The position numbers and the translations under genes are program-made. Source: Thermoplasmata archaeon (GTDB lineage: Archaea > Thermoplasmatota > E2 > DHVEG-1). Taken from it: a DNA stretch of 38,598 nucleotides. Positions 9,721 through 28,769 of this stretch are shown here, one piece after another. Positions within the stretch are counted from its first letter, which is position 1. Every line of letters begins with the position of its first letter. Below the pieces are notes generated by a model. The model was not told the origin of the DNA, did not search any database, and saw nothing but the letters and a program-made list of their open reading frames with translations. The DNA lies in assembly GCA_020054475.1 (NCBI GenBank), contig JAHWGJ010000016.1:1-38598 (forward strand). The letters are read 5' to 3'.

Positions 9721-9813
9721 CCAATGGTAAAACATTTTCTTTCCTTTCTTTTTATAGAATCATAGAAAAATTAAAATCTAACGGGCATCATATATATTAT
9801 TGGAGGGAGTAAT

Positions 9814-10983
9814 ATAAATAAAATTCTTCCATTAATCATAATTATTCTTATTCTATCCTCATTTTCAAATATAACATTTGCTGAGGTTTCAAACAATATC
9901 ATCTATGTCGATGATGATGGTGGTGCGGATTATACAAGGATTCAAGATGCAATTGACAACGCAAGTGATGGAGATACCATTTTTGTATATGATGGATTTT
10001 ACAAAGAAAATCTCCGTATTGATACACCATTGGTTATCATTGGCCAGAATAAAACATCAACAAAAATATATGGGTATGGTGGTACCAAAGAGCTCATTAA
10101 TATAACATCAGATGATGTATCAATCAGTAATTTCCTTATTAATTATGAGTTCTTGCAATCTGTTGAAAGTTATACATATTTACTAAATCTATTCCACGTC
10201 AATAACGTTTCGATAACATCAAATAACTTTAAATCAAATATTGAATGGGGGGACCTTTGGGCGTATATCCTGGTTGATTTTTCATATAATTGTTATATTG
10301 ATAATAATGATTTCAATGGCTCTTCCCCGGAAATTGGTGGATATAATGTTTGGGGTATTCGTTTATCTGAATCATATAACAATATTATATCAAATAATAT
10401 TATTACTTATTACTGGGAATCTGGTATATTGTTATCCAATTCAAATAATAATATAATATCAAATAATTCTATTAAATACACCAGATGGGGTCTTATATTA
10501 GATTATAGTAATTACAATAACATCAAAGGAAATATAATCAGTCATAATGAATTTGAAGGAATTCAATTATTCAAAAGTTCATATAATATAATTCAAAAAA
10601 ATCAAATAAGTTATAACAATGGAACTGGTTTGTATATATTTGAGGGAAGCTATAATAATATTACAAATAATGATATAAGTTCAAATACTTTTTATGGAAT
10701 TGAGATAATCAGTAATAGTTTTATATGGAATTTCATAAGCCCAGATTTGAACAGGACTTCTTCATTATATAATATTATTGCTTATAATAATTTTATAGAT
10801 AATGGAGAGAATGCTTTCTTTGTATCATCTTTTTTTACAAGTTGGAAAATGAATTATTGGGGAGAATCAATAGAACATCCACACCCCATTTTTGGGAAAA
10901 TAGGACCATTTTCAATTATAGCATCACTATGGATAAATTTTGACTGGAATCCTGCTCAAGAACCATACGATATATCATCCTAA
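9814..10983 (+). CDS. Secreted NosD-like parallel beta-helix repeat protein 1
   Basis: Frame of track ORF 10030..10983 stays open upstream to ATA 9814: (I)NKILPLIIIILILSSFSNITFAEVSNNIIYVDDDGGADYTRIQDAIDNASDGDTIFVYDGFY..., matching the N-termini of the next two paralogues. GGAGGGAG lies just upstream. Confidence 0.8.
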   Translation: MNKILPLIIIILILSSFSNITFAEVSNNIIYVDDDGGADYTRIQDAIDNASDGDTIFVYDGFYKENLRIDTPLVIIGQNKTSTKIYGYGGTKELINITSDDVSISNFLINYEFLQSVESYTYLLNLFHVNNVSITSNNFKSNIEWGDLWAYILVDFSYNCYIDNNDFNGSSPEIGGYNVWGIRLSESYNNIISNNIITYYWESGILLSNSNNNIISNNSIKYTRWGLILDYSNYNNIKGNIISHNEFEGIQLFKSSYNIIQKNQISYNNGTGLYIFEGSYNNITNNDISSNTFYGIEIISNSFIWNFISPDLNRTSSLYNIIAYNNFIDNGENAFFVSSFFTSWKMNYWGESIEHPHPIFGKIGPFSIIASLWINFDWNPAQEPYDISS

Positions 10984-11064
10984 CCATCAACATCATATTC
11001 ACCAAGCAACAATGCTACAAATGATTTTATATCAGAACATCTAATGTTATATTGGGGGGTATAA

Positions 11065-11913
11065 ATGAAAAACAAATCCATCATCTGGGGCATTATTCTA
11101 GTTTTATTACTTTCAAGTATAATTCCAATTACGTATAGTTATGAAATTACTTCAAACAATATTATCTATGTAGATGATGACGGCGGTGCTGATTACACTA
11201 AGATTCAGGATGCGATTGATAATGCAAGTGATGGTGATACTGTTTTTGTATATGGTGGAATCTATTATGAGACTTTAGTCCTTAGAAAATCTATTTTACT
11301 TGAGGGGGAAAATAAGTATACTACAATTCTTGATGGAAAGTCTATTGATTATTCATATGGAATTAGACTATCTCATTATTCTCGATGGTTTAGTCCTATG
11401 ATAACAGGATTTACAATCCAAAATTTTGATGTTGCAATTATTCAACCAGCGCCAATAGGTGGTTTATTGAATATTAACATTTCAAATAATATACTTACCA
11501 ATAACGGTGGTGGGATAGCTATATCGGGCACAATTGGCGGTTTACACGTAGGTTTTGATATTACAAATAATATTATAGAAAATAATTATTATGGCGTATA
11601 TCTAACCTGTTTTAAAAATATTTTAATTAAAAGAAATAAAATTGCATCGAATAGTGGATATGGTATAAAATTAGATGGTGGGAGGAATTATGTTAGGATT
11701 ATTGAAAATAACATATTCAATAATACTGTTGATGCCTTTGTAAATAGCTATGGTTATTTGGGGATGTTTAGCTCAGTTTTTTTAAATAAATGGAATAGGA
11801 ATTATTGGGGGGGCGATTATCAAAAAATAAAAGTTATACCTGGTGACCCTTGTAATGTATATGACTGGAATCCAGTTAAGGAACCATATAATATTCAGGA
11901 GGGAAAACATTGA
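11065..11913 (+). CDS. Secreted NosD-like parallel beta-helix repeat protein 2
   Basis: Signal peptide, IIYVDDDGGADYTKIQDAIDNASDGDTVFVYGGIY, repeated N-x-I beta-helix pattern, C-terminal YDWNPVKEPYNI. Confidence 0.9.
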   Translation: MKNKSIIWGIILVLLLSSIIPITYSYEITSNNIIYVDDDGGADYTKIQDAIDNASDGDTVFVYGGIYYETLVLRKSILLEGENKYTTILDGKSIDYSYGIRLSHYSRWFSPMITGFTIQNFDVAIIQPAPIGGLLNINISNNILTNNGGGIAISGTIGGLHVGFDITNNIIENNYYGVYLTCFKNILIKRNKIASNSGYGIKLDGGRNYVRIIENNIFNNTVDAFVNSYGYLGMFSSVFLNKWNRNYWGGDYQKIKVIPGDPCNVYDWNPVKEPYNIQEGKH

Positions 11914-12869
11914 ATAAATGTATTCTGCAAATAATAACTATCATTTTTCTAATTTCTTCATTCATTCAAATTATATTCGCTGATGAGAATACCTCAAATA
12001 ATATCATTTATGTCGATGATGATGGAGATGCGGATTATACTAAAATACAGGATGCAATAAATAATTCAAATAATGGAGATACTATCTATGTCTATAATGG
12101 ATTTTATACTGAAAATGTTTTTGTTAATAAATCAATAATATTACAAGGTGAAGATAGGAATTTTACAATTATTGATGGCAATAAAACAGGAAAAACAGTT
12201 AGTGTAATAGTAAACAATGTTGAAATCTATGATTTTACATTACAGAATAGTGGACATAAAGCAGTAGATGCTGGTATTAGTGCTATAACAAACTTCAGTT
12301 TATTTTCAAGTAATATATTACTAAATAATGAAGGCTCTGGTTTTTATATTAACGGAGATGATAATACAATTTCAAAGAATAATATTCAAAACAATCGTAA
12401 TGGTATAAAAATTGCTAGTGCAAAAAATAATACCATTACTAAAAATATTATTAATGATAATGGAGATGGAATTACAGTATCCTCTTCAAATAATAATGAG
12501 ATAAAGGAAAATAAAATATCTAATAATTCATATGGTATTTTGCTATGGAGCTGGTATAATATTCCAGGTTCTGAATATACTTCAATATATCATAATAATA
12601 TAACTAAAAACAATATTGGAATTACTTTATCAGAAGCAAAATATACAGACATAAACGGAAATAATTTCTATAAAAATACAAAAAGTGTAAAATTTTGGCA
12701 GAGTCATACTAATAATTGGGATAATAATTATTGGGATAGACCAAGAATATTTCCAAAGATTATTATTGGAAAAACTGGAAATATTTGGTTTGGAGCACTC
12801 TGGATTAATATTGATTGGCATCCAGCAAAAGAACCATTTGATATGCCATTTCTAGAGGTGATACTCTAG
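11910..12869 (+). CDS. Secreted NosD-like parallel beta-helix repeat protein 3
   Basis: Signal peptide, IIYVDDDGDADYTKIQDAINNSNNGDTIYVYNGFY, NNTITKN repeats, C-terminal IDWHPAKEPFDM; TTG start with GGAGGG upstream, overlaps gene 2 by 4 bp. Confidence 0.9.
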   Translation: MNKCILQIITIIFLISSFIQIIFADENTSNNIIYVDDDGDADYTKIQDAINNSNNGDTIYVYNGFYTENVFVNKSIILQGEDRNFTIIDGNKTGKTVSVIVNNVEIYDFTLQNSGHKAVDAGISAITNFSLFSSNILLNNEGSGFYINGDDNTISKNNIQNNRNGIKIASAKNNTITKNIINDNGDGITVSSSNNNEIKENKISNNSYGILLWSWYNIPGSEYTSIYHNNITKNNIGITLSEAKYTDINGNNFYKNTKSVKFWQSHTNNWDNNYWDRPRIFPKIIIGKTGNIWFGALWINIDWHPAKEPFDMPFLEVIL

Positions 12870-14891: not shown

Positions 14892-15071
14892 TTAATCTGT
14901 AGTATCTACTATTTCTGCATTTGGTGCATTTGTTTTAACAGATTCAATGCCATTCTGACAATTTTGTTTTGAAGTGTACATCTCACTTGTAGCAATAATT
15001 TCATTATTTGCTGCTTTTAATGTAAAATAAAATTGTCCATCATCTGATTCATTTATTTCAAATTGTTCTAT
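14892..15071 (-). CDS. DUF1508 (YegP-like) protein
   Basis: FEINESDDGQFYFTLKAANNEIIATSEMYTSKQNCQNGIESVKTNAP; start inferred at ATA 15069-15071 after GGAGGTGA-GAAC. Track ORF starts at an upstream TTG (15104). Confidence 0.8.
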   Translation of the reverse strand: MEQFEINESDDGQFYFTLKAANNEIIATSEMYTSKQNCQNGIESVKTNAPNAEIVDTTD

Positions 15072-27659: not shown

Positions 27660-28004
27660 TTATTTTCTTATATTAACACTTTTATACATATGTTTACCGA
27701 CTAATCCTTTTATAGTTCCTGAAGTTCCCAAAGTAATTAATTCCATATTAATTGATGATATTTTTTTTATTGATTTTAATATTTTAATAGTCTCTTCTTT
27801 ATTCATATTATTACATTTGATTATTCCCCTATTACCATCAAATCTAATTAAATAAATCCCCATCTCGCTTAAATTTTTGTTAAAAAGAATAATACTATTT
27901 TTAATAATTTCAGTTAATAAATTATTTCTTGTTATAGTAAAATTTTTTTTAGATTTATGAACATAAAAACCAATATATCTACGTCTTAATCTTTTTTTTA
28001 ATAT
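27660..28004 (-). CDS. RNase P protein component Pop5 (Rnp2)
   Basis: RRRYIGFYV...GIYLIRFDGNRGIIKCNNMNKEETIKILKSIKKI...LITLGTSGTIKGL matches archaeal Pop5. Track ORF starts at internal ATG 27863; frame stays open to ATA 28002-28004 (ATA TTA AAA AAA AGA TTA AGA CGT AGA TAT ATT GGT), preceded by an in-frame TAA and GGGGTG. Confidence 0.85.
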   Translation of the reverse strand: MLKKRLRRRYIGFYVHKSKKNFTITRNNLLTEIIKNSIILFNKNLSEMGIYLIRFDGNRGIIKCNNMNKEETIKILKSIKKISSINMELITLGTSGTIKGLVGKHMYKSVNIRK

Positions 28005-28031
28005 AGCTTACACCCCTACATTATATTACAA

Positions 28032-28769
28032 TTATTCTGATTCTATACGAGGTGCAAGTAAATATTTAACATGTCCTTTATTATTTGCAATATTAAATTC
28101 AAGTTTTATTGGATTGTCATTTCCGAGATGTATTGTAACATTATCATCTCCTTTAACAGGCTTAATCATATTGCTAAAATAATCAATAGAAAAAAGACTT
28201 TTATAATTACCTTCAGAGGTTAATTCTACTAGTAAATCTTTAGATAGTTTAAGATTTACAGTGTCGGTATCACCTTCTGCAAACATTTCAAAATTATCTT
28301 TATTTACTATTACTGCAAGATGATCTGAAACAGCTTCGGATGCTTTAACACCTCGGTTAATTTCAGAGGCCTTTATTATTGCCTTTGCAGGAAGATTTAA
28401 ATTTGGCATTTTTGGATCAGGCATACCTGCGGTATCAATAAGAGACATTTTTCGTACTAGATTTCCAATCGTAATAATTAATCTATTTTCTGTTTCATCA
28501 TAATTAAGTGATACTAAATCCCCTGAACTTGAAAGTCTCATAATACCTGATAATTTATCCATGTCCACTCCAAGTTCCATATCATCTGCTTTAAATTCTT
28601 CAAAAGCTTTGCAATCAATATTTAGATCAATCATTGCAACATGTGCAGGATCAACTGCTCTTAAAAAAATACCTTTTGAATTAATATTGAATTTTACTTC
28701 ATTAACTAACGGAGATGTTACATCAATTATTCCTTTAAGTACTTCAGATTTTACTATTGCATTAAACAT
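28032..28769 (-). CDS. pcn: DNA polymerase sliding clamp (PCNA)
   Basis: IKSEVLKGIIDVTSPLVNEVKF, FLRAVDPAHVAMIDL, KYLLAPRIE. Confidence 0.97.
   Translation of the reverse strand: MFNAIVKSEVLKGIIDVTSPLVNEVKFNINSKGIFLRAVDPAHVAMIDLNIDCKAFEEFKADDMELGVDMDKLSGIMRLSSSGDLVSLNYDETENRLIITIGNLVRKMSLIDTAGMPDPKMPNLNLPAKAIIKASEINRGVKASEAVSDHLAVIVNKDNFEMFAEGDTDTVNLKLSKDLLVELTSEGNYKSLFSIDYFSNMIKPVKGDDNVTIHLGNDNPIKLEFNIANNKGHVKYLLAPRIESE

Follow-up and report, generated by a model that had tools for sequence, protein, structure and literature searches.

The archaeal gene pop5, which encodes the RNase P protein component 2 (Pop5/Rpp14), was found to carry a non-canonical start codon that is conserved across a lineage and lies at normal spacing behind a strong Shine-Dalgarno (SD) motif. 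Conservation is shown here by sequence comparison; initiation at the codon is inferred. The position of the codon, its SD, their conservation, the ATG of the adjacent PCNA gene as a control and the unusual starts of other genes were all shown in sequence, the evidence being comparative throughout, without N-terminal protein, ribosome-profile or RNA data.

The pop5 locus and its product

The window analyzed here is a 38,598-nucleotide stretch of DNA from a Thermoplasmata archaeon, in which Pfam, alignment and model fold place pop5 (114 aa) at 27660..28004 on the minus strand. At this locus the minus strand reads TGTAGGGGTG TAA GCT ATA TTA AAA AAA AGA TTA AGA CGT AGA TAT ATT. The ATA (28002..28004) follows, at a distance of 6 nt, the SD motif GGGGTG (28011..28016), which takes the form GAGGTG in most relatives and whose register fits the SD-to-ATG spacing of the complete relative genome G002. 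An in-frame TAA (28008..28010), two codons before the ATA, bars any start further upstream, and the open frame (28007..27660, minus strand) contains no ATG, GTG or TTG before codon 48, its first ATG being at 27863, 47 codons after the ATA. We consider the ATA at 28004, with high confidence, to be the only sensible pop5 start in the window, initiation there being inferred from sequence comparison and not measured. If ATH codons initiate, the predicted Pop5 N-termini are (M)LKKRLR in the window and (M)VKEGRRRRYIGF in relatives. The adjacent upstream gene on the same strand, encoding the DNA polymerase sliding clamp PCNA (28032..28769), starts with ATG and served as a within-locus control.

The gene is an archaeal Pop5/Rpp14, as shown by a match to Pfam RNase_P_Rpp14 (PF01900) over residues 9-100 (E 3.5e-7; 30.7 bits against a cut-off of 23) and by its fold; a function in the RNase P holoenzyme is inferred. 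The Pop5 profile also matched PDB Pop5 chains. In the AlphaFold model (pLDDT 88.8) the first beta strand spans residues 8-17 and a helix residues 26-41, and the best Foldseek matches were archaeal Pop5 2czv/2av5 (P. horikoshii/P. furiosus; TM about 0.76). Within an alignment of 21 sequences, the N-terminal residues R7, R9, Y10 and F13 were invariant. A start at 27863 would therefore cost the model its first strand and the helix at 26-41.

An original prediction, made from sequence alone, had claimed that the gene is pop5, that an in-frame TAA two codons upstream leaves no ATG, GTG or TTG for the N-terminal strand, that starting at the ATG at 27863 would drop 47 residues, and that the expected, conserved Pop5 N-terminus is encoded. 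All four claims held: the first by Pfam match, fold and alignment, the second on rereading the sequence, the third from the distance of 47 codons between ATA and ATG, and the fourth from the invariant residues. These residues also dispose of an unconserved N-terminus, which had been named as a possible refutation. The start set assumed there (ATG/GTG/TTG) omitted ATA, ATT, ATC and CTG, all of which NCBI table 11 formally admits as possible starts.

Conservation of the pop5 start among relatives

Homologs of pop5 were found in 32 of the 45 genomes of the window genome's family (f1), and 32 homologous loci, from independent assemblies, were compared. Nearly all named records among the relatives are Thermoplasmatota MAGs; one, SG8-52-3 (locus L047), is listed as Thermoprofundales/MBG-D (PMC6461988). 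The start was ATH in 29/32 loci (ATA in 15, ATC in eight, ATT in six), and in most loci it sat 5-7 nt after GAGGTG, GGGGTG or a close variant. The exceptions were L017, with ATG, L019, with TTC at that place and a probable ATG start one codon later, and L078, which was ambiguous; given L017 and L019, ATH is therefore not indispensable for pop5. The start of a further locus, L024, is ambiguous, with an in-frame TTG three codons before the ATA. The PCNA start could be read in 31 loci and was ATG in every one. On a tree of PCNA and Pop5, made by a quick method with modest support and many weak forks, the pop5 start switches at least eight times among ATA, ATC and ATT, with ATG solely in L017.

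The DNA pattern GGTG-N-ATH-...RxRYIxF matched pop5 in 24 f1 genomes and in one genome of family f3, of the same order, where pop5 also starts with ATA (L027; G039 by pattern search), with no match in the other families of the class that were searched. When ATH was replaced by [AGT]TG, no in-frame canonical start was found at that place in f1; the two f1 matches were both pop5 genes with ATH starts, in which the TTG/GTG letters fell outside the frame or at codon 2. The original claim that pop5 starts at ATA thus held in sequence terms, and a sequencing error turning ATG into ATA, the other refutation it had named, failed, since about 29 genomes have ATA, ATC or ATT at the corresponding place. 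That prediction had missed the GGGGTG SD at normal spacing, the family-wide conservation of the unusual pop5 start, and the unusual starts in other genes of the lineage.

Several observations concern individual loci. Within the sister family f2 (L021, L022, L025, L028, L029), pop5 overlaps the 3' end of PCNA in a different frame, and where it starts is uncertain. Genome G032 has two different pop5 loci (C130, C177), both with ATA, reflecting either duplication or a mixed bin, and L040 (JADFUS010000017.1) is titled a Bacteroidetes MAG yet carries an archaeal pcn-pop5 pair, the contig being mislabelled or misbinned. Between PCNA and pop5 (28017-28031 in the window; the equivalent interval in L002-L078), the spacer of relatives is rich in T (49%), with runs of at least five T in 20/32. 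Lying just before the pop5 SD, these runs resemble archaeal terminator T-tracts; T-runs are known to terminate archaeal transcription. The spacer may add transcriptional attenuation, an inference from sequence.

Near-cognate starts in other genes

Three further genes of the window have probable non-canonical starts: a folE2/MptA-like GTP cyclohydrolase I (PF02649; 8550..9425, minus strand), with ATC at 9425-9423 after AGGTGAT and the next ATG some 47 codons on; a NosD-like secreted protein (9814..10983, plus strand), with ATA at 9814 after GGAGGG; and a DUF1508 protein (14892..15071, minus strand), with ATA at 15071-15069 after GGAGGTG, whose G002 homolog has ATG at the same place. Positions 9775-12869 (plus strand) hold a tandem array of three NosD-like beta-helix genes whose signal peptides match; at corresponding places they start with ATA, ATG and TTG, respectively.

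Among genes of the translation apparatus, trmJ (tRNA 2'-O-methyltransferase, TIGR00050) started with ATH in 20/30 family loci (L219-L248) and with a canonical codon in most others; in many loci an in-frame TGA lies just upstream of the ATH. The pattern CTG-GGN-AAY-ATH, which we take to mark ribosomal protein eS17 on the strength of its N-terminal motif and general knowledge, without a family-library match, was present in 42/45 family genomes and in none of 35 genomes outside the family, among which f2, f6, f8 and f11 yielded ATG/GTG forms. The eS17 leaders were read directly in G002 and G000 (G000:C18:19844, G002:C1:1731305). Some family genomes carry additional ATG or TTG matches to eS17 elsewhere, possibly paralogs. 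A membrane protein gene likewise has an ATH start, as ATA in the window genome and as ATT in G002, and near-cognate starts also occur in aconitase; some genes with such starts have ATG in relatives. ATA/CTG starts were seen in DtdA and dihydroorotate dehydrogenase (DHODH), for which conservation in relatives was not established. Within G002, Orc1/Cdc6 apparently starts with ACG, and DHODH and an RNase J-like MBL protein with CTG, each behind an SD (154131, minus; 505958, plus; 1344615, minus).

The genome-scale comparison drew on 345 kb of the window genome, the complete genome of G002 and 400 kb of the outgroup G041. SD-to-ATG spacing in G002 was mostly 5-8 nt. Where an SD in G002 led no canonical start, ATH was enriched at the right spacing, making up 20 of 93 codons at 5-8 nt versus 29 of 285 in bins 2-4 and 9-17; the 0-1 bin (14 of 41) is inflated because GGTGATH itself lengthens the SD. 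Starts led by an SD of at least 5 comprised 63 canonical, eight ATH and three other in the window genome sample; 431 canonical, 13 ATH, seven CTG, two ACG and 30 other in G002; 132 canonical, two ATH, two CTG, one ACG and 13 other in sister family f2; and 76 canonical, no ATH, one CTG and two other in a control, the L. salivarius plasmid pMP118 (32% GC). We infer from these comparisons that, in this lineage (Thermoplasmatota, the Thermoprofundales/MBG-D group), several percent of SD-led genes begin at near-cognate codons (AUH, CUG, probably ACG). Given the many G002 SD sites without a plausible start (the 30 "other"), calls for single genes from the SD alone are uncertain. Lists of homology before the first canonical start served as leads only; many of the upstream extensions in them were spurious.

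Initiation machinery

In archaea, aIF1 guards start codons and destabilizes non-AUG complexes (PMC6237735), and in the relevant passages of a review AUG, GUG and UUG are the only archaeal starts mentioned (PMC7531240). We found aIF1 in 55 of the 60 relatives searched, including 33/36 in the family, the remainder being incomplete MAGs; its sequence is unremarkable, with the KRRYGK loop present, and it starts with ATG in G000 and G002. The initiator-like tRNA of G002 is ordinary, with anticodon CAU. Loss of aIF1 as the cause of near-cognate starts was accordingly rejected, as was infC-like autoregulation of aIF1, given its ATG start; an altered initiator tRNA is not supported. With aIF1 unremarkable and the initiator tRNA ordinary, nothing that was found accounts for tolerance of near-cognate codons.

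Discussion

The best reading of these data, and in our view a very probable one, is that near-cognate initiation by an ordinary initiator tRNA is positioned by the SD and that selection maintains it in particular genes. What remains inferred is initiation at AUA, the N-terminal methionine, co-transcription with PCNA and a regulatory purpose. The strong SD (GGGGUG) would place the 30S subunit, with initiator Met-tRNA (anticodon CAU), on the AUA at 28004, where the tRNA would pair with the A and U and not with the third base. Near-cognate starts would be kept gene by gene, AUH in pop5 and trmJ and CUG in eS17, and the pop5 codon would drift among AUA, AUC and AUU, AUG occupying that position in 0 of the 29 loci that show the arrangement. 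From this drift within AUH in the absence of AUG, selection appears to favor a weak start codon preceded by a strong SD. By inference, such a start most likely keeps Pop5 output low, or tied to initiation stringency, relative to the co-oriented PCNA gene just upstream.

The rival that deserves most attention is neutral drift: these archaea may initiate well wherever a near-cognate codon follows an SD, in which case AUH in pop5 would have no regulatory meaning. This remains possible, and it is favored by the presence of near-cognate starts in unrelated genes (folE2, NosD-like, DUF1508, DHODH, orc1, aconitase), some of them ATG in relatives. Free codon exchange would, however, mix ATG with ATH, and the absence of ATG at that place in the 29 of 32 pop5 loci with ATH, despite at least eight codon changes, argues against neutrality, as do the CTG of eS17, kept in 42 genomes, and the ATG of the adjacent PCNA in 31/31 loci.

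The other alternatives fare worse. Initiation at the GTG that ends the GAGGTG motif, with ATH a plain isoleucine codon, is allowed by an open, in-frame GTG in 14 of the 29 ATH loci, but GTG runs immediately into a stop in seven loci, including the window, and is out of frame or absent in eight; moreover, no separate SD would precede it. For the window itself GTG TAA rules it out, and overall we regard it as practically eliminated. The same holds for a sequencing error (ATA for ATG) or a decaying pop5 pseudogene starting at 27863: the data are from MAGs and no in-frame ATG occurs until 47 codons in, but ATH recurs in independent assemblies of many genera, and pop5 shows an uninterrupted frame, a conserved protein and a complete fold. 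Readthrough of the stop or frameshifting could instead yield a PCNA-Pop5 fusion that would need no pop5 start, and this finds some support in the shared frame of PCNA and pop5 in the window and in the f2 overlap in another frame. A fusion is nonetheless highly improbable: three in-frame stops lie between the two genes in the window, and the frame of one gene relative to the other varies among relatives, whereas the SD and ATH do not move.

If selected, SD-positioned near-cognate initiation is the correct reading, then Pop5, TrmJ, eS17 and many other proteins in one of the commonest groups of sediment archaea, which is uncultured, would be cut short or overlooked by gene finders that consider only ATG/GTG/TTG. 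Across a whole archaeal family, named core genes appear to retain AUH or CUG, although AUU and similar non-canonical starts are very rare: a change from AUG to AUU was seen for one of 61,358 ancestral AUG starts in 36 groups of bacterial and archaeal genomes (PMC5622118). How an ordinary-looking aIF1 and initiator tRNA accept these codons, and whether their weakness serves control, are the questions raised.

The window Pop5 resembles archaeal RNase P Pop5 proteins (2czv, 2av5, 3wz0, 6k0a) in sequence and fold, but has an ATA start; for those four, a non-canonical start is not reported in the literature searched, their genes not having been compared individually. No prior report of such conserved starts in archaea was found in the open-access literature searched. 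Start selection by aIF1, studied in Pyrococcus and Saccharolobus (PMC6237735), has in common with the present lineage both aIF1 and SD-positioned initiation; there, however, aIF1 destabilizes non-AUG complexes, whereas the lineage studied here appears to keep near-cognate starts.

The closest parallels are bacterial. Like pop5, infC, which encodes IF3, has a conserved AUH start (AUU/AUC) in a gene of the translation apparatus, and this start gives control via initiation fidelity (PMC5472188). Pop5, however, is not an initiation factor, so that a direct feedback loop is absent and the requirement of infC-type autoregulation that the product be an initiation fidelity factor is not met; moreover, the host is an archaeon with aIF1, itself started by ATG. 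Streptomyces sigR, which has a GTC start and is repressed by IF3 (PMC5472188), is likewise a non-initiation-factor gene with a conserved non-canonical start that limits output relative to a partner gene. It differs from pop5 in being bacterial and in having GTC in place of ATH, and its effect is experimentally shown, while that for pop5 is inferred. By analogy, the strong SD and weak start codon of pop5 would represent the infC/sigR design (PMC5472188), repression by a fidelity factor being inferred. A bolder reading, toward which we lean slightly less than away, is that Thermoprofundales tune parts of their translation apparatus by start-codon stringency, through gene-specific near-cognate starts (AUH in pop5 and trmJ, CUG in eS17) behind strong SDs; were this so, it would be an archaeal counterpart of infC-type control spanning several genes.
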